Notes: generated from the letters alone by a model not told the origin. 64,000 nt of DNA from Sporomusa termitida (GCF_007641255.1 NZ_CP036259.1:2976001-3040000), one strand, 5' to 3'. Counted from the first letter of the stretch, positions 42,198-55,926 are shown. Made by a program: numbers and translations.

Positions 42198-42305
42198 TTA
42201 GTTTTCAACTTCATATCCGAGATTATGCAATTATGCGAATACATTTGTTATGACAGAAGAATACTAAAAAGCATTGATATGTTCTCAGATACCGGGAGGA
42301 AAAGC

Positions 42306-44947
42306 ATGCCAACTTATACACTTTTGTTTACTGAAATCAGTAAACAGGATTTACCAATGGTAGGCGGCAAAGGGGCAAACTTGGGAGAAATTTCTAAAAT
42401 AGACAAAGTGAACGTACCGCCGGGGTTTTGTGTCACCACAGAAGCATATCAATCTTTTGTCACGACAAGCCCGGCGTTAGCCGGTTTTTTAGACCAACTC
42501 TACGATTTAGAGGTTGAAAACTCCGACACGGTCCAATTGTTGGGGCAGCGCATCCGTCAGCATATGGAAAGCCTGCCGGTGCCAGACGATATCCGGCGGC
42601 AAATAAATCAAGCCTGGCAGGAAACAGGCGGAGATTATGCTTATGCCGTTCGCTCCAGTGCGACAGCAGAAGACCTGCCCGGCGCATCATTTGCCGGGCA
42701 GCAGGATACTTACCTGAACATTCAAGGGATTGACGCCATTGTCGATCATGTCCAGAAATGCTGGGCCTCTTTGTTCAGCGACCGCGCCATCGTGTATCGC
42801 GCCCGCAACGGCTTTGATCATAAAAAAGTTTTGCTGGCCGTGGTTGTACAGCAGATGATTGCCCCGGAAGTATCGGGGATTATGTTTACTGCCGACCCGG
42901 TAAACGGCAATCGCAGGGTTATCTCCATTGACGCCGGCTTTGGCTTGGGCGAAACATTGGTGAGCGGCACGGTTACCGCCGACCTCTACAAGGTGAAAGA
43001 AAATAACATTCTGAAAAAACAGCTTGGTGATAAAAAAATCGCTGTATATGCCGTACCGGAGGGTGGTACCAGGGAAAGATCACTGCCTGTCGAAATGTCC
43101 AAGTGCCAGGCGCTCACCGACGAACAAACGCTCGTATTGGCGGCAATCGGCAAAAACATTGAACGCCATTTGTCTTCCCCCCAGGACATTGAATGGTGTT
43201 TTGCTGACGGCATTTTCTATATTGTGCAAAGCAGGCCGATTACTACGCTCTACCCATTGCCTGAACTTGCCGATAACCGGTTTCGTGTATTCGCCTCCCT
43301 TGGGCATCAGCAAATGATGACCGATCCCATGAAGCCGCTTGGACTTTCACTGTTTCATTTTTCGGAACCCTATGCTCAGATCCTGGTTCCCGTCGGAGGA
43401 CGTTTATTTTGTGACATTACCTCTACCTGCTCCCCTGGGCAGAAACAGTCAATCGTCATGGGAACAATGGATGTTTTGATGGGCAGCGCCATCGACGAGG
43501 TCAAAAACCGCCGTGATCTTGTCGCCTTGCTGCAACCGGAAGCAAAACAAACGTTTAGCTTTGCCGGACTAAAAAAGCTGGCTGGGCCAGTGTTTAAAAT
43601 CTTAGAAAATCTGACGGCCAAAGATCCAAGCCAGGCCTATAATTTTTATGGTTTGTCTGAGGAAAAAATTGCTGAAGCGCAACAAACGTTAGAACAGCTT
43701 GCCGGCGGCGACAAAATCAGGTTTATTGACCGGGATAAAATGGAAATGTTCAAATGGGTCCTGCAGGGCAATATGATGGGACCGTTTATCGCCAGTATCC
43801 TGGCCTTTGAATTAATTGACCGCTTTTGTAAACGCTGGCTGGGAGACAGCAAAGAGGTCGAGCATTTAGGCAAATCACCGCCCAGGAATGATACCAGTGA
43901 AATGGGCCTGGCGCTTGGCGATCTCGCCGATATTATACGTCAGTATCCCGCCGTTATCGCTTATCTGCCTCAGGCCGGCGACAACACGCTGTTGGCAGGA
44001 CTGGAAACGGTCGAAGGCGGCCGCATTGTTAAACCGGTTTTTGAGGAATTTCTCCAGCACTATGGCATGCGGTGTACCGGAGAAATTGATATTACACGGC
44101 CCCGCAACCCAGCCAGCTTATCCCGGCAATCCTAAGCCATATTCAAAGCGTACAGCCAGGTGAACATCGCCGTAAGTTTGCCGAAGGCGAAAAACGGGCA
44201 GAAGAAGCGGCCAAAATGCTGTCAGCCCGCTTAAAAAAAATAAAGGGCGGCGCCGTAAGAGCAAAAATCATGGACAAGCTCGTTAAAACCTATCGGGGAC
44301 TGGCCGGCTTTAGAGAATACCCCAAATATTTCATTGTCGCCCACTTTAACTTATATAAACAAGCCATTATGAAAGAAGCGGAAAAGCTTGTTTGTCAGGG
44401 AGTGCTTAACCAGGCCGAAGATGTGTATTATCTGTCCCTTACTGAACTGGAGCAAGTTATCCGGGCAGCTCATGCCGATCAGCAATTGATTGCTGACCGT
44501 AAGGAAAAATACCGGGAATATGAAAAACTAACGCCGCCCAGGGTGATGACCAGTGAAGGTGAAATCATCAATGGCAGCTATGGCGAACAGGCTGCACCGC
44601 CGGGAGCGCTGCCCGGAATCCCGGTATCGGCCGGAATCGTGGAGGGACGCGCCCGGGTCATTCTAAAACCGGAGCAAGCAAAGCTGGACAAAGGGGATAT
44701 CCTGGTGGCCGCCTTTACAGATCCTGGCTGGACTCCGTTTTTTGTATCGGCAAGCGGCGTAGTTACCGAAGTGGGCGGACTAATGACCCATGGTGCGATT
44801 GTAGCCCGCGAATATGGTATTCCAGCCGTTGTGGGCGTCCAGCAGGCTACCAGTCTCATTCGGGAGGGGCAGCGAATTCGCGTGAACGGGACCAAAGGCT
44901 ATATTGAACTACTGGATGATTTGCCGCCTGCCAGCCCGGTACATTAA
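42306..44947 (+). pseudogene. PEP synthase / rifampicin phosphotransferase family gene, frameshifted
   Basis: Start ATG at 42306 after GGGAGGAAAAGC. Frame 1 runs to a stop at 44135: an N-terminal PPDK-type ATP-binding domain (LPMVGGKGANLGEI, AYAVRSSATAEDLPGASFAGQQDTYLNI, GIMFTADPVNGN, DIEWCFADGIFYIVQSRPITTL) and a middle domain to YGMRCTGEIDITRPR. Homology then continues in another frame from about 44108 (PSQLIPAILSHIQSVQPG) to 44947, ending in the swivelling phosphohistidine domain (GGLMTHGAIVAREYGIPAVVG). Family members read about WNEDP at the junction, so a loss of roughly ten bases at 44105-44108 is likely. Together the parts give about 880 codons, normal for the family. A functional split pair cannot be excluded. 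Confidence 0.85.
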
Positions 44948-45022
44948 AATCAGCCTTTAGGGTAAAGATTTTCTTATCCCTTAGGTACTAGCAGCGAATT
45001 TTTAATTCTGATGGGACAATAA

Positions 45023-45050
45023 AAGACGGCTGCCGGTTGCCGTCTTTTGG
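45023..45050. terminator. Rho-independent terminator
   Basis: AAAAGACGGC pairs with GCCGTCTTTT around TGCCGGTT. It lies between the converging PEP synthase-family gene and the copper operon end, and can serve both strands. Confidence 0.85.
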
Positions 45051-45130: not shown

Positions 45131-45568
45131 CTATCCGTGATGCCAACTATGACCGGCAGGAAAACTGTCGCCGTCCTGCTCAGCCGGTTGCGGCGCGCCG
45201 TGATCGCTGTCCATATCCACAGAATTTACCAAGTCGGCCATGATTTGATGAAAGGCCATATCCTGCTGAAGCATTTGCTTCATGACCCCCTGCAGCTCGG
45301 GCGTTTTCATCATATCCTTCATTACCTGCTGCATGGCGGGGTCTTTCATCATGTCCAGGCACTGCTTTTGCATCGCCGGTGTCTTCATCATTTCAGCCAT
45401 GGCCTGGGGGTTCATTTTTCCCGGCATCACCCCGGGCTGATTGGCCTGCGTTCCCCAGGCCTGCGTCGATTTTTCAGGCGCCCCGGCGATTGCCGGGCTG
45501 ACTCCTACAGCCAGCACCGCCGCAGTTAACAGGCCGCCAACAGCCCAAACGCTAAACTTTTTGTTCAC
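45131..45568 (-). CDS. Exported Met-rich repeat protein at the end of the cus operon
   Basis: About 145 residues from a GTG at 45568 with GGGAGGG upstream; an ATG at 45604 lacks a ribosome site. Signal peptide (VWAVGGLLTAAVLAVGVSPAIAG). The mature part has tandem degenerate repeats of about 11 residues: MAEMMKTPAMQ, LDMMKDPAMQQ, VMKDMMKTPELQ, then QMLQQDMAFHQIM. It ends in an acidic/His tail (DMDSDHG, HSWHHG). About 18 Met in the exported part would suit Cu(I) or Ag(I) binding through thioethers. No named domain is recognised. Last gene of the tolC-cusBA operon. Confidence 0.8.
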   Translation of the reverse strand: MNKKFSVWAVGGLLTAAVLAVGVSPAIAGAPEKSTQAWGTQANQPGVMPGKMNPQAMAEMMKTPAMQKQCLDMMKDPAMQQVMKDMMKTPELQGVMKQMLQQDMAFHQIMADLVNSVDMDSDHGAPQPAEQDGDSFPAGHSWHHG

Positions 45569-45613
45569 CCTAAACCCTCCCAGATAATTATTGTTGCTAT
45601 TCATAGGTTCTTA

Positions 45614-46168
45614 TTATAATACCCGCTTGGCCCCATAATAGCGGTTGACAAAATAAGTGTCGCTCATATCACCAAATGCTACAATGCCCTGGCCAAAAGA
45701 GGTATGGATAAATTTGCCGCCGCCGGTATAAATGCCCACATGGGAGGCACCCTGTTCATAAGTGCTGAAATACACCAGGTCACCTGGCTGCAGGTCTGCC
45801 GGCGCAACCGTCCGCCCGACCATAAACTGCAAGTCGGCGGTCCGCGACAAGTTGACACCGGCCTGCCTGTAGACATACTGCACCAGGCCGGAGCAGTCAA
45901 ATCCCTGGGCCGGTGAAGCCCCGCCCCACACCACCTGCCGGCCGAGCAGATTCCGGGCAGACGCTACAACAAGGGCCGTCCGGCTGGCTATAGCCGGGCT
46001 GAAAACAGGGATCTGCCGCTCTGCGGCGACAGGCATAACGGCACCGGCCAAAATCGCCTCAAGCGACTGCAGAAACTGGTTATAGCCGGGAGCCGGAGCG
46101 GCTGCCGCCACAGCCGTGCCGCCAAACAGGACTCCGGCCAGGATTATGGGCAGTATCCATTTACGCAT
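45614..46168 (-). CDS. NlpC/P60 cell-wall hydrolase
   Basis: 184 residues. A signal peptide (ILAGVLFGGTAVAAAAP) and a C-terminal NlpC/P60 domain: VVWGGASPAQGFDCSGLVQYVY with the catalytic Cys at about residue 91, SHVGIYTGGGKFIHT with the two His residues. It cleaves peptide crosslinks in peptidoglycan. Its place inside a copper efflux operon is unusual; it may open the wall for assembly of the trans-envelope pump (inference). Confidence 0.92.
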   Translation of the reverse strand: MRKWILPIILAGVLFGGTAVAAAAPAPGYNQFLQSLEAILAGAVMPVAAERQIPVFSPAIASRTALVVASARNLLGRQVVWGGASPAQGFDCSGLVQYVYRQAGVNLSRTADLQFMVGRTVAPADLQPGDLVYFSTYEQGASHVGIYTGGGKFIHTSFGQGIVAFGDMSDTYFVNRYYGAKRVL

Positions 46169-46191
46169 GCTCCGTCCTCCTGCCGGGTCAA

Positions 46192-46653
46192 TTAATGACT
46201 CATAGTCTGCAGGTGAGCTGTCGTTTGCTTCATCAGGTCCTGCATAGCTTTTGCCTGGTCCTCGATAACTGCCGGGTCCACCTTGCCGGCATTAACCTTA
46301 TCCTTAATGTCAACGGCCGCTGTGCGCAATTTATCTTTTAATCCGGCATCCATCATATGCGGCATAACCTTATCGGTAATACTCACAAGCTGCCCGGCGC
46401 TGTTTTGCGCCGCCATGATCTGTCCGGCCTGCACCTGCTTGACAACGTCCTGCAGGTTTTTTTCCATGTCTTTCATCATGGGCATCGGATCTTCCTTCGG
46501 CATCGAGGCACTATGACTCTGGTGGCCGGCCGCCTGCTCCTGGGCGGCCGGAGGCGGCGCCGCCGCTTTCTGACCGGCGCCACCGCAGCCTGTTACCAGA
46601 ACAACGGCCGCCGTGATGGCTAACAGGCCCAGAACTATTTTACTTTTTTTCAT
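46192..46653 (-). CDS. Met/His-containing lipoprotein of the cus operon
   Basis: 153 residues. Lipoprotein signal VVLVTGC with lipid Cys at residue 23, then a Pro/Ala linker and GHQSHSASMPKEDPMPMMKDME. The rest is predicted mostly helical with scattered Met and His (VMPHMMDAG, HLQTMSH). It may capture copper or silver outside the membrane like CusF, though it has no CusF fold motif. It lies 26 bp after cusA. Confidence 0.8.
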   Translation of the reverse strand: MKKSKIVLGLLAITAAVVLVTGCGGAGQKAAAPPPAAQEQAAGHQSHSASMPKEDPMPMMKDMEKNLQDVVKQVQAGQIMAAQNSAGQLVSITDKVMPHMMDAGLKDKLRTAAVDIKDKVNAGKVDPAVIEDQAKAMQDLMKQTTAHLQTMSH

Positions 46654-46679
46654 ATTTTGCAGTCTCCTTGCTTAATAAA

Positions 46680-49600
46680 TTATTTGGCGACAGGCTCCCT
46701 GCCGGCAGCAGCCGTCTGCTTGCGCTCCCGCCACTGGTTCCAGACCAGGTAGATGCACGGCAGCACGATCAGGGTCAGCACCGTGGAAGTGACCAGACCG
46801 CCCACGACAACGGTGGCCATTGGCCGCTGTACCTCGGCCCCGGTACCGGTGGCAAACAGCAAGGGGAACAGCCCCAGGCTGGCGACAAGCGCGGTAATCA
46901 TAACTGGCCGCAGCCGGGTTAAGGCGCCTTCAATAATGGCTTCCTCCAGCGTCCGGTGGTCGCGCAGGTGTTTAATATACGTTACCATAATGACCCCGTT
47001 TTGCACAGCAATACCAAACAGGGCAATGAAGCCGACAGCCGCAGCGACCGTGAGGTAGGTGCCGGTGAGATACATGGCCACAATGCCCCCCACCAGGGAG
47101 AAGGGGATGTTCAGCAGAATAAGAAAGGCATCGCTGGCAGACTTGAAGGTCAAATACAATAAGAAGAAAGTCAGGATAATGACTGCCGGCACGACCAGTG
47201 ACAACCGGTCTTTCGCCCGCTGCTGGTGCTCATACTGGCCGGTCCATTGCAGGGAATAACCGGCAGGCAGGTCGACTTTTTCTTTAATCACCTGATTGGC
47301 TTCATTAACAAAGCCGACAATATCCCGGTCCCGGGCATTCATTTGAATAATCATCCGGTACACGCCATTATCGCTGCTGATCATGGACGGTCCGTCCACA
47401 ACCTGGAACCGGGCCACCTCGCCCAGCGGTACATAAGCCCCGCTGACCGGCGCGGCTGGGGCGGCAGGTACGCTATCGCCCATGCCGTCCATCCCGTCGC
47501 CGCCGGTTTTGGCCATAGCCCCGCTGCCGGTTACGGGAATAAGGATATTTTGCATGGCTTCGATTGTCTCCCGGTTTTCCCGGTTATAACGGACGAGAAC
47601 ATTAAAGCGTTTGCGGCCTTCAATCGTGGTCGTGGCGGTTTTGCCGCCGACTGCCAGTTCGACGGCGTCTTCGACGTCGGCAATGTTCAGGCCATACCGC
47701 GCCGCCTGTTCCCGGTTGACCTCAATCTCCAGATAGGAAGCGCCAAAGACCCGCTCGGCTAAAAGATCGCTGACCCCCGGCACCGTTGCCAGGGCTTGCT
47801 CAATAGCAAAGGCTTTTTGCTGCAATACCTGCAGATCTTCCCCATAGAGTTTGATCCCCAATTCGGTGCGGACGCCGGTTGTCAGCATGGCCAGCCGGCC
47901 GGCAATCGGCTGGGTAAAAGCTAAGTTGAGTCCGGGAATATTGGCCAGTTTAACCATCATTTCCTGCTCAATGGCCTCTTTGGTCATCCCGGCCCGCCAC
48001 TGCGCTTGGGGTTTGAGGGTAACAATCGTCTCAATCATGCTGATGGGTGCCGGGTCCATGGCCGACTCGGCCCGGCCAACCTTGCCCACAGACATCTCAA
48101 TCTCCGGAATTTCCTCAATAACCTTATCCATCGTTTTGGCCGCTGCCACCGCCTCGGTGAGGGACACACTGGGCAGCATAGTCGGCATAACCAGGAATGT
48201 CCCTTCATCCAAAGCCGGCATAAAGCTGGTGCCAATGAGCGGCAGGAGTGAAAAGCCGGCCAGCATGACAATAACGGCAATGGCAATCGTGGCCTTGCTG
48301 TGCCGCAGCACTGACTTGACCGCAGGCCGATACCATTGATGCAGCCTGGCGACAATCCAGGTATCTTTTTCCTGGATTTTTCCTCTGAGCAACAGGGTGC
48401 AGAGTACCGGCACCAGCGTGAAAGCCAGCAGCAGTGACCCGCTCATAGCGAAGGATTTGGCCCAGGCCATCGGCGTATACAGCTTGCCCTCGGTGCCGGT
48501 CATGGTAAATACGGGCAGGAAGGTGACGATGATAATCATAATGGAAAAGAAAATCGGGGCTGCCACTTCTTTGGCCGCTTCCAGGGTCACCTCGACAATA
48601 TCACGGCGGCCCCGGTCTTCAGCCAAATGGCGGTAGATATTCTCCACCATAACAATAGCCGCGTCGGTCATAACACCGATGCCGATGGCGATACCGCCAA
48701 GGGACATCAAATTAGCCGACAGGTGGATCTGCTGCATGGCAATCAGCGCGATAAGAATCCCCAGGGGAATGGCGCTGGTCACAATCAGGCTGGACCGCAG
48801 GTTGCCCAAAAAAGCGACGACAATAATTGACACAAGGATGAATTCTTCCACCAGGGCCCGGGTCAGGGTATTGACCGCTTTTTTTACCAGGTCGGTTTGA
48901 TCATAAAAAGGCACAATCCGCATGCCTGCAGGCAAGGTTGGCTCGATTTCAGCAATCTTGGCTTTTACCTGATCAATCACATTCAGCGTATTTTCGCCCA
49001 TCCGCTGAATGACAATCCCCCCGGCCGCCTCATAACCGGATTTAGTCAGCACACCCCGGCGGAAATCGGGCCCGGTGGTTACCTGGGCTACATCTTTAAT
49101 ATAAACAGGCACATTGTTATTCTGGGTAAGGACAATATTCTTAATATCGTCAGGCGACTGGATTAAGCCCAGCCCGCGGACGATAAACTCCTGACCGTTT
49201 TGCTCGACCACCTTCGCCCCGATATTGGCATTGTTGGCGCCAAGGGCGGCAAATACCTGGTTGAAGCTGACCCGGTAGCTTTGCAAAAGCTGGGGGTCCA
49301 GATTAATCTGGTATTGCATTACATAACCGCCAATGCTGGCAACTTCGGCTACCCCCGGCACGGCGCTCAACTGCTGCTTAATGGTAAAGTCTTCGACAGT
49401 TCGTAAATCAGCCAGATTGTGGCGGTCACTTTCCACGGTATACATAAAGACCTGGCCCATCGGGGTGCTGACAGGTCCTAAAGCCGGCTGCACACCCCGT
49501 GGCAATTGGGGAATAGCCTGCTGGACTTTTTCATTCACCACCTGGCGGGCAAAGTAAGGATCTACCCCGTCTTCAAAAATAACAGTGATGAGTGACATCC

Positions 49601-49865
49601 CAAACGAAGAGGCAGAGCGTACTTCCTTCACGTCCGGCAGCCCCCGCAGGGCCGTTTCCAGCGGATAAGTGACCTGATCCTGAATTTCCTGCGGCCCCCG
49701 CCCCATCCAGTCAGCCGCGACAAGTACCTGATTCTCACTGAGGTCAGGAAACGCGTCAATGGGGGTATCGCGGACCACAAAGATTCCCCAGACCAGGACC
49801 AGGGCCGATAAAGCCAGGATAATCACACGATTGTGTATGGAAAACTCGATGATTCTGTTTAACAT
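46680..49865 (-). CDS. cusA: Heavy-metal RND efflux pump, CusA type
   Basis: 1061 residues, an HME-RND inner-membrane pump with about 12 membrane helices in two repeats. Markers: DAFPDLSENQVLVAADWMGRGPQEIQDQVTYPLE-type N-terminus, GVMTDAAIVMVEN in helix 4 and the CusA-like GRAESAMDPAPISMIET with Met residues of the porter domain. Monovalent copper or silver is the likely substrate. An insert of about 30 residues near 790-815 (AKTGGDGMDGMGDSVP) is Gly/Met-rich and not usual. It works with the adaptor and TolC encoded upstream. Confidence 0.94.
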   Translation of the reverse strand: MLNRIIEFSIHNRVIILALSALVLVWGIFVVRDTPIDAFPDLSENQVLVAADWMGRGPQEIQDQVTYPLETALRGLPDVKEVRSASSFGMSLITVIFEDGVDPYFARQVVNEKVQQAIPQLPRGVQPALGPVSTPMGQVFMYTVESDRHNLADLRTVEDFTIKQQLSAVPGVAEVASIGGYVMQYQINLDPQLLQSYRVSFNQVFAALGANNANIGAKVVEQNGQEFIVRGLGLIQSPDDIKNIVLTQNNNVPVYIKDVAQVTTGPDFRRGVLTKSGYEAAGGIVIQRMGENTLNVIDQVKAKIAEIEPTLPAGMRIVPFYDQTDLVKKAVNTLTRALVEEFILVSIIVVAFLGNLRSSLIVTSAIPLGILIALIAMQQIHLSANLMSLGGIAIGIGVMTDAAIVMVENIYRHLAEDRGRRDIVEVTLEAAKEVAAPIFFSIMIIIVTFLPVFTMTGTEGKLYTPMAWAKSFAMSGSLLLAFTLVPVLCTLLLRGKIQEKDTWIVARLHQWYRPAVKSVLRHSKATIAIAVIVMLAGFSLLPLIGTSFMPALDEGTFLVMPTMLPSVSLTEAVAAAKTMDKVIEEIPEIEMSVGKVGRAESAMDPAPISMIETIVTLKPQAQWRAGMTKEAIEQEMMVKLANIPGLNLAFTQPIAGRLAMLTTGVRTELGIKLYGEDLQVLQQKAFAIEQALATVPGVSDLLAERVFGASYLEIEVNREQAARYGLNIADVEDAVELAVGGKTATTTIEGRKRFNVLVRYNRENRETIEAMQNILIPVTGSGAMAKTGGDGMDGMGDSVPAAPAAPVSGAYVPLGEVARFQVVDGPSMISSDNGVYRMIIQMNARDRDIVGFVNEANQVIKEKVDLPAGYSLQWTGQYEHQQRAKDRLSLVVPAVIILTFFLLYLTFKSASDAFLILLNIPFSLVGGIVAMYLTGTYLTVAAAVGFIALFGIAVQNGVIMVTYIKHLRDHRTLEEAIIEGALTRLRPVMITALVASLGLFPLLFATGTGAEVQRPMATVVVGGLVTSTVLTLIVLPCIYLVWNQWRERKQTAAAGREPVAK

Positions 49866-49876
49866 GCCGTGCCCCC

Positions 49877-51148
49877 TTAATGACCGCTATGGCCGCTGTG
49901 TTCGCCGCCGGCAGCGGGCGCAGCCGGCACGCTCGGGGCAGGTGCCGGCGCTGCCGGCGGTGCGGTTCCCGCGGCCGTGCCGCCGCCATGGCCGGCGTGG
50001 CTGCCAAAGCTGCCTAACTTGGTCTGAGAATCAATCAGGAAGGCAGCCGCGGTAACTACAGGTTCACCAGGCTGCAATCCGGACAGGATTTGCACATAGC
50101 CGTCTGTTTGTTGCCCGGCAACCACCTCGCGTTTGACAAAGGTATCCTCACTTTGGGCCACAAAAACAATTTTCCGGCTGCCGGTATCAAGGAGAGCCGA
50201 TTCCGGTATGACCAGGCCCGCCGCTAATGGGGTCTGCACCCTGGCGTTAACGAACATATTAGGTTTTAGTTTGCCGCCGGGATTAGCCATCTCGACCCGG
50301 ACTTTGACGGTCCGGGTGGCATCATCAAGTATCGGATTAATAAAAGTTATCCGGCCGGCAAACTCCTGACCCGGATAGGCGCCGCTGGTTACCACAACCG
50401 CCTGGCCGGGAGTAATGCCGGCAATATCTTTCTCATAAATATCGGCATACAGCCAAACAGTAGATAAGTCCGACAGACTGTATAATTTATCCCCGGGCAT
50501 AATGAAGGCCCCGGGCAGCAGCTGTTTTTCCAGCACCGTACCACCAAACTGGGCATAAACAGTCATCTGCTCCTGCGCTTTCCGGGTGTGCTCCAGATGA
50601 ACGATCTCACTGTCAGGCACATTGAGGAGCTGTAGTTTGCGCCGGGCCGCCTCCAGCAGGCGGTTGTTGAGCTGGACTACATCCTTGCCGGCATTTTTCA
50701 GCTTTTGCACAGTCTCCAGGGCTAACAAATATTCTTCCTGGGCGGCGATGTAGGTGGGACTGTAGACGACGGCGATGGCCTGGCCGGGGGCAATAGTCTC
50801 GCCCTCGGCCGTTACGTACAGTTCATCCACCCGCCCTTCAACCCGGGAAGTGATATAGGTCCGGCCGTTTTCATTCATGGCAATCTTGCCGGTAGTCTTA
50901 ATTTCTTTGGTCAATGCTTTAACAACCGCTTGCGCGGTTTGTACCCCGGCCAGCTGCCTGGCCCTGGCGTCAAGGGTTACGGTATCACCCATCGCCATAA
51001 CCGGCCCGGACATTTGATGTCCGGTATGGTCTGCCGCCACTGGTTTATTGTGTTGCAGGGAATAATAGTAGCCGGCACCGCCAATGACCAGGACACCGGC
51101 GGCCATGCCGATGATAAGCTTTTTTTGGGCCTGTAGTTTTTCGATCAT
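49877..51148 (-). CDS. cusB: RND efflux periplasmic adaptor, CusB type
   Basis: 423 residues. N-terminal membrane anchor (LIIGMAAGVLVIGGAGYYY), then HTGHQMSGPVMAMGD with soft-metal ligands. The barrel-sandwich and hairpin domains follow (SRVEGRVDELYVTAEGETIAPGQAIAVVYSP, TVYAQFGGTVLEKQLLPGAFI, DLSTVWLYADIYEKDI). A C-terminal Ala/Pro tail ends in His-rich GEHSGHSGH. It links CusA to TolC. 11 bp before cusA. Confidence 0.93.
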   Translation of the reverse strand: MIEKLQAQKKLIIGMAAGVLVIGGAGYYYSLQHNKPVAADHTGHQMSGPVMAMGDTVTLDARARQLAGVQTAQAVVKALTKEIKTTGKIAMNENGRTYITSRVEGRVDELYVTAEGETIAPGQAIAVVYSPTYIAAQEEYLLALETVQKLKNAGKDVVQLNNRLLEAARRKLQLLNVPDSEIVHLEHTRKAQEQMTVYAQFGGTVLEKQLLPGAFIMPGDKLYSLSDLSTVWLYADIYEKDIAGITPGQAVVVTSGAYPGQEFAGRITFINPILDDATRTVKVRVEMANPGGKLKPNMFVNARVQTPLAAGLVIPESALLDTGSRKIVFVAQSEDTFVKREVVAGQQTDGYVQILSGLQPGEPVVTAAAFLIDSQTKLGSFGSHAGHGGGTAAGTAPPAAPAPAPSVPAAPAAGGEHSGHSGH

Positions 51149-51169
51149 GCTGTCCTCTCCTTCTCCGGC

Positions 51170-52516
51170 TTATTCAAGCGAGCCATCCACACTGGTAAAC
51201 AAGGGCTTGCCTACCGCTTTTTCCAGATTAGCCGCCGCTTTTTCATAATCCACCTTGGCCTTGTACAAACCAAGCTTGGCATTGCGCAGGGTATTAACCC
51301 CTTCCAGGACAGTCATGAAGTCAACCTTGCCGTTGGTATACCCGACTACCGCCGCCTGGTAAGTCTGCTCAGCCTGGGGAATGATTGTGTTTTTATACAA
51401 TTCAATCTGCCGCCAGGCTGCCTGCGCTTCCGTAAGAGCCATCTGGACATCAAGCTCGGCCATGTTTTTCATATTCTGGAGGGCCGCCTGCGAAGCCTCG
51501 AAGCCGGCCTGGGCCGCTTTGATTTCGGCTTTGTTTTTGCCTTGCCAGATAGGCAGCATCGCCATAACCTCAATCTTCCAGGTTGGTTTTCTCTCCTCCA
51601 GCATGAGTGTGGTATTCATCGGATTCATATGATCCACCTGTTCTTCCACCATCGGTTCTTTGTTTTTTTTGTAGCCCAGCCGGACCTCAAAATCAGGCAG
51701 CCGCTGCTTCTTGGCCAGTTCAATGCCGTTTTGGGCCATTTCCACCTGATACTCCATGCCGGTTACGGCCGGCTTGCTTTCAGCGGCTTTAACCAGGTAG
51801 GCCAGATCAAAGTTAGGCGGCGGTGCCGTAAACTCTTCCTTCACCGCCAGACCCGTATTGGTGCTGCGGCCCATCAGGTTGTTAAGCTTGGCTTTGGCCA
51901 CCGCCTCCATTGACGCCATATCTAACAGATCGATTGTCATCTGCGAAAACTCGGTCTGGGCTTTCAGGGTATCCTGCAGAGGCACCATACCGGTAGCGTA
52001 ATTGATTTGGGCCAATTGTACCAGCTGGCCCATAAGCTGCTGGCTTTCCTTGCCGATGCTCAGCGCCTGCCGGAAATACAGATAATCGTAATAAGCCTGT
52101 TTGGCCTGGGTATATACCTCAAGCTGTTTGTCATTCCAGCCGGCTCTGGCCATATTGGCCTCACTGCCGGCCATCTTCCCCATCGCTTTCAGCTTAGACG
52201 GATTCATAAACTCCTGGCTGAGGCCAAACTCGGTCATCATCCCCTGGCCGGGATTCAAGCTGGAGGTAGGAATGTCGTCCTTCATAATCCCGAATTTGAG
52301 ATTGGGCTGGGCCGTAACAGCGGGAATCCGGCTGGCTTTCTCCTCCCATTGCTTTTGCGTCTCGACAACGGCCGGATTATTGCGGACAGCATAATTCACA
52401 ATCTCCTGCAACGTCAGGGGCTGCTCGGCCGCAAGCACCGGCTGCAAATTAGCGGTGACCATAATCGCAAAGACGATAAGTGCGCTTAAAATACCAGGTT
52501 TGGCCATGCTGCTCAT
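51170..52516 (-). CDS. TolC-family outer-membrane efflux protein
   Basis: 448 residues. A signal peptide ends LQPVLAAE near residue 30. Two TolC repeats follow: LTLQEIVNYAVRNNPAV and LAYLVKAAESKPAVTGMEYQVEMAQNGIELAKKQRLPDFEVRLGYK, with a long coiled-coil half ending AAANLEKAVGK. It forms the outer-membrane channel of the copper/silver pump and is direct evidence of a diderm cell. First gene of the operon. Confidence 0.93.
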   Translation of the reverse strand: MSSMAKPGILSALIVFAIMVTANLQPVLAAEQPLTLQEIVNYAVRNNPAVVETQKQWEEKASRIPAVTAQPNLKFGIMKDDIPTSSLNPGQGMMTEFGLSQEFMNPSKLKAMGKMAGSEANMARAGWNDKQLEVYTQAKQAYYDYLYFRQALSIGKESQQLMGQLVQLAQINYATGMVPLQDTLKAQTEFSQMTIDLLDMASMEAVAKAKLNNLMGRSTNTGLAVKEEFTAPPPNFDLAYLVKAAESKPAVTGMEYQVEMAQNGIELAKKQRLPDFEVRLGYKKNKEPMVEEQVDHMNPMNTTLMLEERKPTWKIEVMAMLPIWQGKNKAEIKAAQAGFEASQAALQNMKNMAELDVQMALTEAQAAWRQIELYKNTIIPQAEQTYQAAVVGYTNGKVDFMTVLEGVNTLRNAKLGLYKAKVDYEKAAANLEKAVGKPLFTSVDGSLE

Positions 52517-52604
52517 TGTTCAACCTCCCTTAAGATTATATATTTATCAACTCTCGATGTAAGAGCCTATGTAGAGGTGCCTGTCTGTACTATAGCGTAA
52601 AGTT

Positions 52605-52642: not shown

Positions 52643-52703
52643 TTTCCGTAAAATCCAGTGAAATCTTGAGACCAGAGCATTGAGCTTTCTATAAATTCTG
52701 GGG

Positions 52704-52747
52704 GTAAAAAAATACGCAAGCGCCTGAAAATCAGGTTCTTGCGTATT
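52704..52747 (-). terminator. Rho-independent terminator after copZ
   Basis: AATACGCAAG (52711-52720) pairs with CTTGCGTATT (52738-52747) plus an inner CCTGA/TCAGG stem. On the minus strand it is followed by a seven-T run. It separates the csoR-copA-copZ unit from the tolC operon. Confidence 0.92.
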
Positions 52748-52764
52748 GGCAGCCGGTTATTCAA

Positions 52765-52968
52765 TTACACTACGTCAAAGCCGGTATCTTCGACCGCCTT
52801 AACCAGTGCCGCCCGGTCAGCAGTGCCGGTGACCAGTGCTTCCTTTTTGGCCAGGTCAACACTGGCGCTTATAACGCCGGGAACAGCCTGCAGGGCCTTT
52901 TCCACACTCATTTTGCAATGTCCGCAGGACATTCCCTCAATTTTCAATATCGTTTGTTCTTGGCTCAC
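52765..52968 (-). CDS. copZ: Copper chaperone CopZ
   Basis: 67 residues, a single heavy-metal-associated domain with the GMSCGHC site (Cys15, Cys18). The ferredoxin-like fold is completed by VEKALQAVPGVISASVDLAKKEALV. It carries Cu(I) to the ATPase CopA encoded 46 bp upstream. Confidence 0.95.
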   Translation of the reverse strand: MSQEQTILKIEGMSCGHCKMSVEKALQAVPGVISASVDLAKKEALVTGTADRAALVKAVEDTGFDVV

Positions 52969-53014: not shown

Positions 53015-55441
53015 TTAGGGCTTATAGGGGTTAAACCGTTTCAGTCGCAGGGCATTGGTAACCACCGATACCGAACTGAAGGCCATGGCCGCACCGGCCA
53101 GCACCGGTGACAGAAACCCGGCTGCCGCCACGGGAATACCTAGTGAATTATAAACCAGCGCCCAGAACAGATTCTGTTTAATGTTCCGCATCGTTGCCCG
53201 GCTTAAACGGATAGCCGCCACAATTCCGGTCAGGTCGCCCCGCATGAGGGTAATATCGGCCGCCGCAATCGCCACATCGGTGCCGGTCCCGATTGCAAAG
53301 CCCACATCGGCCGTAGCCAGCGCCGGCGCATCGTTTATGCCGTCACCAACCATAGCGACAATCTTGCCTTCCTGTTTTAGCGCCGCAACCTTTTCCGCCT
53401 TATGTTCCGGCAATACCTCAGCCATAACATTGGTTATGCCGACCGCGCCGGCGATGGCCCGGGCGGTCCGGCTGTTGTCCCCGGTTATCATCCATACTTC
53501 GATACCCATGTTTTGCAGCCCGGCCACCGCTTCGGCCGAATTCGCTTTCACAGTGTCAGCCACCGCAAATAACCCGCTGAGCTGGTTTTCCAGGGCGAAC
53601 AACATGACTGTCTTGCCCTGAAGCTCCAGCTCTTCCATTGGCCCGATCGCGCCGGCAATATCAATCGCGTTGTCCTGCAGCAGTTTCCGGGTGCCTACCA
53701 GAATTCTCTGCCCGTCAACGGTAACCTCGACCCCGTGCCCCGGTATGGCCGTAAAGGAGGCCGGATCTTCCGGCACAAGCCCCTGCTGTTTGCCATAGCT
53801 GACAATCGCCTGCGCCAGGGGATGCTCGGAGTTTTTCTCGGCCCTGACCGCCAGCTGCAGGAGCGTCGCCGCATCCAGACCGGCCATGGGTATAATATCG
53901 GTAATTTCCGGTTCCCCTTTCGTGATGGTGCCGGTTTTATCAAGGACAATGGTTGTCAGCCGGTGGGCATGCTCTAAATGCTCGGCCCCCTTGATCAGAA
54001 TACCATGCTCGGCGCCTTTGCCGGTGCCCACCATAATGGAGGTCGGCGTGGCTAGGCCCAGGGCACAGGGGCAGGCGATAACCAGCACGGCCGTAAAATT
54101 AACCAAGGCCCGCGAAAAATTGCCGGCGTCCAGGAGGAAGAACCAGGCGGCAAAGGTTAGCAGCGCTAACCCGACGACAGCCGGCACAAAATAGGCCGAC
54201 ACCACATCGGCAAAGCGCTGGATGGGCGCCTTCGAGCCCTGGGCCTCTTCGACAATCCGGACAATCTGGGCCAGGGCCGTATCTTTGCCGACCTTGGTAG
54301 CCTCAAATTTGAAGGTGCCTAATTTATTGATGGTGGCACCAACCACCTGGTCACCGGCCTTTTTATCAACAGGCAGGCTTTCGCCGGTCAGCATCGATTC
54401 ATCAATTGTCGATGTCCCGTCCACAATCACACCGTCGACCGGCACTTTTTCCCCCGGGCGCACGACAACAATATCACCGGTCAGGACCTCGGCAATGGGA
54501 ATGTCCAATTCCCGGCCGTCGCGCACCACCCTGGCCGTCTTGGCCTGCAGCCCCATGAGCGCCTTAATCGCCTCCGAGGTCCGCCCCTTGGCCGTCGCTT
54601 CCAGCAATTTTCCTAAAATAATCAGCGTGATCAAAATAGCCGAGGTTTCAAAATACAGATCCGGGTCCTGGCGCAGCACATTCGCCACACTGTAAAAATA
54701 AGCCGCCGAGGTGCCCAGTACTACCAGGACATCCATATTGGCACTGCCATTCTTCAGTACGATATAGGCGCCCCGGTAAAACTGCCAGCCGGCAATGAAC
54801 TGAACAGGCGTAGCCAATACCCATTGCAGGTAGGGATTCATCAGGAAATGGGCAACGCTGTCCATTACCCCCAGCATATGCAAAACCATAGCCAGCAGCA
54901 GCGGCAGGGAGAATACGGCCGCCACCAGCAGCCGCAGGCGCTGTCTGGTTACCTCGGCCTCCCGGGCCTCCTTTTCCCTGTCGACCGCGGCGGTATCGGT
55001 TAGATCATGCGCGCCAAACCCCAGCTGCTCGATCTTAGCCTTGATATCGGCGATGCCGCTAACCCCCGCATAATATTCTACCGTTGCTTTTTCCACCGCC
55101 AGATTAACAACCGCGCTGGTCACCCCGGGCAGTTTGCCCAGGCCTCTTTCTATCCGGCCGGAGCAGGCGGCGCAGGTCATGCCGGTAATCTTTACCTCCA
55201 CCTTGTCCCTGACCACCTGATAGCCCAGAGCTTCAATCTTGTGCACGATTTCGCCCAGGCTGGTCCGGGAACTGTCATAGGTTACAGCGGCCTTCTCCGT
55301 CGCCAGGTTAACCGCCGCCTTTTCCACCCCCGGCAGCTTGGCGAGCCCCCGTTCCACCCGGCCCGAACAGGCCGCACAGGTCATCCCACCCACCTTTAAA
55401 AACACGGTTGCCAGCGGCAACGACGCCTTGGCCTCAGACAT
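53015..55441 (-). CDS. copA: Copper-exporting P1B-type ATPase CopA
   Basis: 808 residues. Two N-terminal metal-binding domains, each with GMTCAAC (about residues 19-25 and 89-95). Eight membrane helices, with the transport motif CPC (VIACPCALG) at about residue 455; TGES in the actuator domain; phosphorylated Asp in DKTGT at about 499; HP locus SEHPLA; and GDGINDAP hinge. Cu(I) export from the cytoplasm, and in a diderm into the periplasm, where the Cus pump can take over. The second gene after csoR. Confidence 0.97.
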
Positions 55442-55511: not shown

Positions 55512-55781
55512 TTACTTTGTAAATTTGGATAAAACGCCCATTAATTCATCGATGGCTTCCTCAGTACGGTCTTCCCTGATGGCATTGACCACACAGCTCT
55601 TCGTATGGCTCTCAATCATAATCAGGGCAACCTGATTGAGGGCCGCCCTGGCCGCCATAATCTGCTGCAGAACCTCCACACAATAGCGGCTCTCATCAAT
55701 CATTTTCTCAATACCGTTGATTTGGCCGCTGATCCGCCGCAGCCTTTTTTTTATATCAATTTTTTCTTTATCATCCAGCAT
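55512..55781 (-). CDS. csoR: CsoR copper-sensing repressor
   Basis: 89 residues from the ATG at 55781, which has GTAGGAGGG upstream; the frame extends to 55913 across the promoter without a start signal. All-helical CsoR/RcnR-family protein (KKRLRRISGQINGIEKMI). The copper ligands Cys34, His59 and Cys63 keep the same spacing as the Cys-His-Cys triad of CsoR and so predict Cu(I), not nickel, sensing. First gene of csoR-copA-copZ. Confidence 0.95.
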   Translation of the reverse strand: MLDDKEKIDIKKRLRRISGQINGIEKMIDESRYCVEVLQQIMAARAALNQVALIMIESHTKSCVVNAIREDRTEEAIDELMGVLSKFTK

Positions 55782-55792
55782 ACAGACCCTCC

Positions 55793-55844
55793 TACTATAC
55801 CCCCGTATAGTATATATTTTAATCCGGCTGCAATATATTGTCAA
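55793..55844 (-). promoter_or_regulatory. csoR-copA-copZ promoter and CsoR operator
   Basis: On the minus strand: TTGACA (55844-55839), 17-bp spacer, TAAAAT (55821-55816). Immediately downstream is a perfect 8-bp inverted repeat with a G/C-rich centre, TACTATAC-GGGG-GTATAGTA (55793-55812). This matches the TATAC-G/C-GTATA type of operator bound by CsoR. The site covers the start of transcription, consistent with copper-relieved repression. Confidence 0.85.
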
Positions 55845-55871
55845 TACTTTGATAGTATTCCCCGGCCGCGC

Positions 55872-55926
55872 GCAAAAAAGAGTAAGCAGCCATCCCCTGA
55901 TTTTCAGGTGCAAGGCTGCTTACTCT
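55872..55926 (-). terminator. Rho-independent terminator after the malic enzyme gene
   Basis: AGAGTAAGCAGCC (55879-55891) pairs with GGCTGCTTACTCT (55914-55926), with a CCTGA/TCAGG inner stem. A T-run follows on the minus strand. It ends the 62.8-56 kb operon before the csoR promoter. The inner stem resembles that of the terminator at 52704-52747. Confidence 0.92.

Follow-up and report, generated by a model that had tools for sequence, protein, structure and literature searches.

What takes the place of CusF in a copper pump operon that lacks it, and why should such an operon encode a cell-wall hydrolase? These questions are raised by a locus of Sporomusa termitida, contained in a window of 64,000 nucleotides (GCF_007641255.1, NZ_CP036259.1:2976001-3040000; "the window" always refers to this whole stretch) from a complete-grade genome of 5.3 Mb. 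Six minus-strand genes, tolC-cusB-cusA-lipoMH-nlpC-metRep, run from 52516 to 45131 as one unit. A preliminary description, made from the sequence alone, had listed tolC-cusB-cusA followed by a Met/His lipoprotein, an NlpC/P60 hydrolase and a Met-rich exported protein, with gaps of 11-46 bp. All six genes were found where it placed them, and the gaps measure 11-45 bp (tolC-cusB, 21 bp; cusB-cusA, 11 bp; cusA-lipoMH, 26 bp; lipoMH-nlpC, 23 bp; nlpC-metRep, 45 bp when counted from the GTG start of metRep). With moderate confidence, we regard a Cus-type Cu(I)/Ag(I) efflux operon of the Sporomusa group of Negativicutes, equipped with its own conserved accessory cassette, as the best explanation of the locus as a whole. 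The operon looks like a variant of the Cus machine in which one or two envelope proteins rich in metal ligands replace CusF and a conserved enzyme that cuts the wall is added. Its genes are:

51170..52516, minus strand: tolC/cusC-like outer membrane channel, 448 amino acids (aa); PF02321, 148 bits; TIGR01844; ribosome-binding site AGGGAGG
49877..51148, minus strand: cusB-type periplasmic adaptor, 423 aa; HlyD_D23, 246 bits
46680..49865, minus strand: cusA, heavy-metal RND pump, 1061 aa; TIGR00914, 1148 bits against a cut-off of 701
46192..46653, minus strand: lipoMH, Met/His lipoprotein with a lipobox and a predicted four-helix bundle, 153 aa
45614..46168, minus strand: nlpC, secreted NlpC/P60 peptidase without a wall-binding module, 184 aa; PF00877, 95 bits against 23
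45131..45568, minus strand: metRep, exported protein with 13-residue Met repeats, an invariant Cys and an HHx end, 145 aa, GTG start

That TolC, CusB and CusA form a trans-envelope pump of the Cus kind, of Cu(I)/Ag(I) type, is supported by the sequence tests. The sample for comparison was an even draw of 300 Negativicutes genomes; 35 of these contain a cusA ortholog (37 loci) and 265 do not. The Cu(I)/Ag(I) Met triad of CusA, M560/M610/M660 (M573/M623/M672 in E. coli), is kept in 37/37 relatives and, together with the TIGR00914 score, agrees with the copper/silver pump of the preliminary description. Among solved structures, E. coli CusA is the best match (E 1e-241), ahead of ZneA (2e-207). 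From the E. coli relay set (M391, M403, M410, M486, M501, M271, M755) four residues are kept, the relay Mets of the window protein being M387, M399, M406 and M474, and the proton-relay D401 (D405) is kept as well. M501 is replaced by Cys, M271 by Phe and M755 by Thr; M1009 is unaligned. The adaptor matches the E. coli CusB structures (E = 1.5e-30) and passes the general RND adaptor profile TIGR01730 (139.6 against 94.9); it fails the curated CusB profile NF007303 (127 bits against a cut-off of 390) and also stays under the CzcB cut-off. It carries an N-terminal HxxHQ...MAM motif and a C-terminal HAGH/HSGH tail. The 36 CusB orthologues have an N-terminal His/Met segment, with HxxHQ...MAM in most of the close ones, and most of them share the His-rich C-terminal tail (HAGH...HSGH), which is replaced by a Met tail in three. 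The adaptor scores below the curated cut-offs and the loss of the two outer relay Met residues (M271 and M755 of E. coli) could be taken as signs that the pump moves another metal, for example Zn, Cd or Ni, like CzcA or ZneA. In view of the invariant Met triad, the retention of most relay Met residues, the better structural match to CusA than to ZneA, and the copper genes next door, this appears very improbable.

No trace of the usual CusF was found, in agreement with what had been noted earlier for the locus. CusF (PF11604) was detected neither anywhere in the genome nor in any of the 300 Negativicutes genomes (0/300), while the E. coli and Caulobacter positive controls were detected. Its role is probably filled by LipoMH together with the His/Met tails of CusB. 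With the E. coli CusCFBA and plasmid SilCFBA systems, the Sporomusa operon shares the tripartite Cu(I)/Ag(I) RND pump with Met triad and most relay Met residues, the TolC-family channel, and the HlyD-type adaptor with an N-terminal Met cluster. It differs from them in the absence of CusF/SilF, the order tolC-cusB-cusA, the His-rich C-terminal tail of CusB, the replacement of two outer relay Met residues in CusA, and the presence of the extra genes lipoMH, nlpC and metRep.

The extra genes are not peculiar to the window. Directly downstream of cusA, whose relatives are 67 to 90% identical, lipoMH is present at 31/37, nlpC at 27/37 and metRep at 11/37 loci. On the other side, tolC lies upstream of cusB at 35/37 loci. 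Unsupervised clustering of the neighbours at the 37 loci gave cusA (37), cusB (36), tolC (35), lipoMH (29) and nlpC (26), followed by a response regulator (17), a kinase (17) and metRep (15), with all others at 9 or fewer. Strong lipoMH or full-length nlpC of the cassette type was found in 0/265 genomes without a cusA ortholog. The Fisher values for co-occurrence with cusA (2e-36 for lipoMH, 3e-30 for nlpC) are both inflated by relatedness and descriptive only. The ratio of nonsynonymous to synonymous substitution rates (dN/dS) is mostly 0.04-0.2 for lipoMH, nlpC and metRep in informative pairs; by this measure, all three genes are under purifying selection. The expectation that the small genes stay with cusA across the Negativicutes thus held for lipoMH and nlpC. 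It did so less for metRep, a looser partner with 11 more copies elsewhere, several of them beside lgt or a two-component system, and with a presence in two genomes without a cusA ortholog. Related loci occur in Sporomusa, Pelosinus, Propionispora and Anaerospora, which fits the diderm Firmicute host that had been proposed. Sporomusa sp. KB1 and S. silvacetica are examples of strains with the complete cassette. When the search for relatives was taken beyond the Negativicutes, to 348 genomes of the phylum, the window's own genome alone matched at E 1e-180. A contig scan with a single lipoMH peptide pattern returned 17 loci; those titled by genus or family are all Negativicutes, and one is titled Bacillota.

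The surroundings of the pump vary. A pair of response regulator and histidine kinase genes lies within a few kilobases (kb) of cusA in 17/37 loci; it is not in the window, where csoR-copA-copZ stands as neighbour instead. The second cusA copy of S. acidovorans (G115:C50) has an internal TAG and a truncated nlpC, and represents a decaying duplicate operon. More small exported Met-rich proteins are encoded near the pump at loci L039, L042 and L048 (+3.9 to +4.9 kb of cusA) and upstream of it at L041, and one family of such proteins, of about 104 aa, is present at 9 loci.

LipoMH starts with a signal peptide and lipobox (G22 invariant, Cys23 in 28/29 sequences), followed by a flexible linker with H44 and H47 and the predicted four-helix bundle, which is modelled with a predicted local distance difference test (pLDDT) score above 90 across most of residues 51-150. 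M51, P52, D55, H99, Q149 and H153 are invariant in the 29 sequences, and M57, M60, M100, M101 and M151 are mostly kept. The model has M51 and D55 at the start of helix 1, H99 at the end of helix 2 and H153 at the end of helix 4. By the topology of an up-down bundle, the conserved Met and His residues would gather at one end, which suggests one metal site. Neither LipoMH nor MetRep has a Pfam or NCBIfam match to CusF, DUF305, SilE/PcoE-like or other named copper proteins. Among metal-binding folds, the model comes closest to SmbP (PDB 3u8v), also a four-helix bundle (TM-score 0.79 by target, root-mean-square deviation 2.2 over 87 columns), but the match is not significant (E = 0.2, 9% identity); the fold is a common one, and kinship is unsupported. 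A match of LipoMH to Ndr (E 5e-4, under the cut-off) was judged to be due to chance, like similar low matches. Distant lipoMH relatives end a five-gene cluster at loci L104 (13318-17417), L105, L107 and L108; the cluster encodes mostly unassigned proteins, one of them weakly cytochrome b561-like.

MetRep is built from the repeat unit MMKxPxMQxxMxx. The period is 13 (autocorrelation z = 5.9 at lag 13) and not 11 residues, as the preliminary description had it (z = -1.1 at lag 11). The GTG start at 45568 has a strong ribosome-binding site (GGGAGG) and agrees with the homologues; an alternative ATG at 45604, with neither a ribosome-binding site nor homology, was rejected. With its Met repeats, an invariant Cys82 (ATG numbering) and the HHx end, MetRep is a probable copper buffer. 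A different role is hinted at by a weak likeness to the core of the germination protein GerD (Pfam E about 1e-5 to 1e-7; PDB 4o8w, E = 7e-4), with which it shares Met-rich helical repeats. Sporomusa is a spore former, and the last genes of the operon might serve spore formation or germination, as a GerD-like protein and a cortex hydrolase placed here by chance. However, the window MetRep fails the GerD profile PF17898 (25 bits against a cut-off of 29.5), has no lipobox, although GerD is a lipoprotein, and carries the additional Cys and His tail. Moreover, only genomes with cusA contain the nlpC and lipoMH clades, and a spore function is hardly to be expected. At loci L044 (+5204 to +6669 relative to cusA), L054, L101 and L098, metRep is followed by an extra lgt gene for a prolipoprotein diacylglyceryl transferase, which at L044 passes TIGR00544, and by an isoprenylcysteine-methyltransferase-like gene. 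Since lipoprotein acylation in E. coli is reportedly blocked by copper (PMC6538781), the additional lgt in a copper context is of interest.

It could be argued that the main work of LipoMH and MetRep is to soak up or sense copper in the envelope, beside the pump and without handing metal over to it. The precedent is CopM of Synechocystis, a periplasmic Cu(I) protein that is encoded apart from the HME-RND pump CopBAC and confers resistance independently of it (PMC4335983). Members of the lipoMH and metRep families also occur away from cusA, some beside two-component systems. In contrast, nearly every strong lipoMH copy immediately follows cusA, and the conserved site of LipoMH is small and clustered instead of spread out; a sponge or sensor role without hand-over is possible, but we consider it rather unlikely. 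The Synechocystis and Sporomusa systems are alike in that the HME-RND pump is accompanied by a Met-rich periplasmic protein other than CusF, and a two-component system is near many relatives. They differ in that LipoMH and MetRep have no DUF305 match (E up to 1), that lipoMH is inside the pump operon and its product lipid-anchored, and that a hydrolase is present.

The hydrolase has the fold and the Cys-His-His site (C92, H143 and H155, invariant in 14 aligned sequences) of NlpC/P60 endopeptidases such as MepS/Spr and the LytE type. Unlike these, it is not a lipoprotein, has no LysM or other wall-binding domain, and is encoded in a pump operon. The cassette enzymes form a clade of their own, apart from the other NlpC proteins of the same organisms (support 97/92), and share a conserved N-terminal segment of ~35 residues, GYxQFxxSLDSI...PVADE. 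The aligned paralogues from the same genome are longer, with an N-terminal region that resembles a peptidoglycan-binding module by eye. In the nlpC of L048 (G066, Pelosinus fermentans UBA6563, a metagenome-assembled genome) the catalytic Cys codon is TGA. Selenocysteine was set aside as an explanation because the gene also appears frameshifted further on; a decaying copy or assembly errors are likelier.

Taken together, these features can be arranged into a mechanism. LipoMH, held in the periplasm by a lipid anchor, would capture Cu(I) via the Met/His cluster at the bundle end and deliver it first to the CusB arms with their His and Met residues and then to CusA, in place of CusF. MetRep would act as a Cu(I) buffer by means of the MMKxPxMQ repeats, the Cys and the His tail. 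NlpC, guided by the pump-specific N-terminal segment, would cut bonds between D-Glu and meso-diaminopimelate in the stem peptides, most likely letting the copper-induced pump span or insert through the wall. Several observations weigh against this scheme. S. ovata (G123), where lipoMH but neither nlpC nor metRep adjoins cusA, and nine more cusA loci are without an intact cassette nlpC, and the pump can therefore do without the enzyme. None of the seven other RND pumps of the S. termitida genome has an NlpC nearby, which argues against a general requirement of these pumps for a hydrolase. The LipoMH model found no significant structural match (best E 0.07), and the MetRep model is poor (pLDDT 54).

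The loss of nlpC at some loci that keep the pump, and the seven pumps that do without a nearby hydrolase, would also be expected if NlpC served wall metabolism under copper stress. Copper would then block other wall enzymes, and a copper-induced endopeptidase would balance the turnover of cross-links. In line with this, according to PMC11390936, citing Peters 2018, copper inhibits LD-transpeptidases and shifts the composition of the wall in many diderms. On the other hand, nlpC follows the cusA pump (27/37 loci) and not the separate csoR-copA-copZ unit, the active-site Cys would itself be copper-sensitive, and the N-terminal segment peculiar to the enzyme looks as though meant for docking. The stress explanation in this form is plausible, even if on balance we lean against it. 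A wall function specific to copper has almost the same likelihood as service to the pump, and NlpC may either open the wall for the pump or sustain wall turnover under copper. The more specific proposal, a dedicated peptidoglycan endopeptidase recruited via a pump-specific segment and combined with LipoMH as a new family of Cu(I) chaperones, lipid-anchored four-helix bundles that replace CusF, is put forward only tentatively and is more doubtful than the Cus-type operon as such.

The copper genes that precede the pump operon in the window and the transcription signals around it are as follows:

55512..55913, minus strand: CsoR/RicR-type metal-sensing repressor of the neighbouring unit; PF02583, 97 bits against 22.8
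53015..55441, minus strand: copA, Cu(I) P1B-ATPase of the neighbouring unit; TIGR01511, 630 bits against a cut-off of 397
52765..52968, minus strand: copZ, cytoplasmic copper chaperone of the neighbouring unit; NF047957, 96 bits against a cut-off of 85
52690..52750, minus strand: terminator hairpin 3' of copZ, stem and U run, -21 kcal/mol, z = -4.2
52535..52563, minus strand: promoter-like site CTTACA-17-TATAAT 5' of tolC, 10/12 positions of the consensus, a consensus match only
45020..45049, both strands: bidirectional terminator hairpin at the operon end, 10-pair stem, z = -6.1; a scan of the plus strand finds the hairpin too

In view of the strong hairpin after copZ and the promoter-like site before tolC, a single transcript of csoR-copA-copZ and the pump operon is unlikely. 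On the other side of the operon, at 42225-44947 on the plus strand, a phosphoenolpyruvate synthase/rifampicin phosphotransferase-like gene is split over two frames (NF004877 profile positions 2-595 and 639-869), by a frameshift or a sequence error.

No description of the cusA-lipoMH-nlpC association was found in the open-licence papers searched. LipoMH and MetRep seem to be two undescribed protein families, and the hydrolase is in an unusual place. The passage of long trans-envelope pumps through the wall, and their possible need for wall enzymes of their own, have been little studied; the part searched of one review of tripartite pumps mentions peptidoglycan hydrolases for FtsEX only. The question becomes testable with a conserved endopeptidase tied to a single copper pump in diderm Firmicutes, and close relatives offer natural pairs with and without the enzyme. 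LipoMH would be a substitute for CusF with an unrelated sequence and probably an unrelated fold. If the proposed role of NlpC is true, this RND pump would have a wall-remodelling module of its own, much as secretion systems and flagella do.

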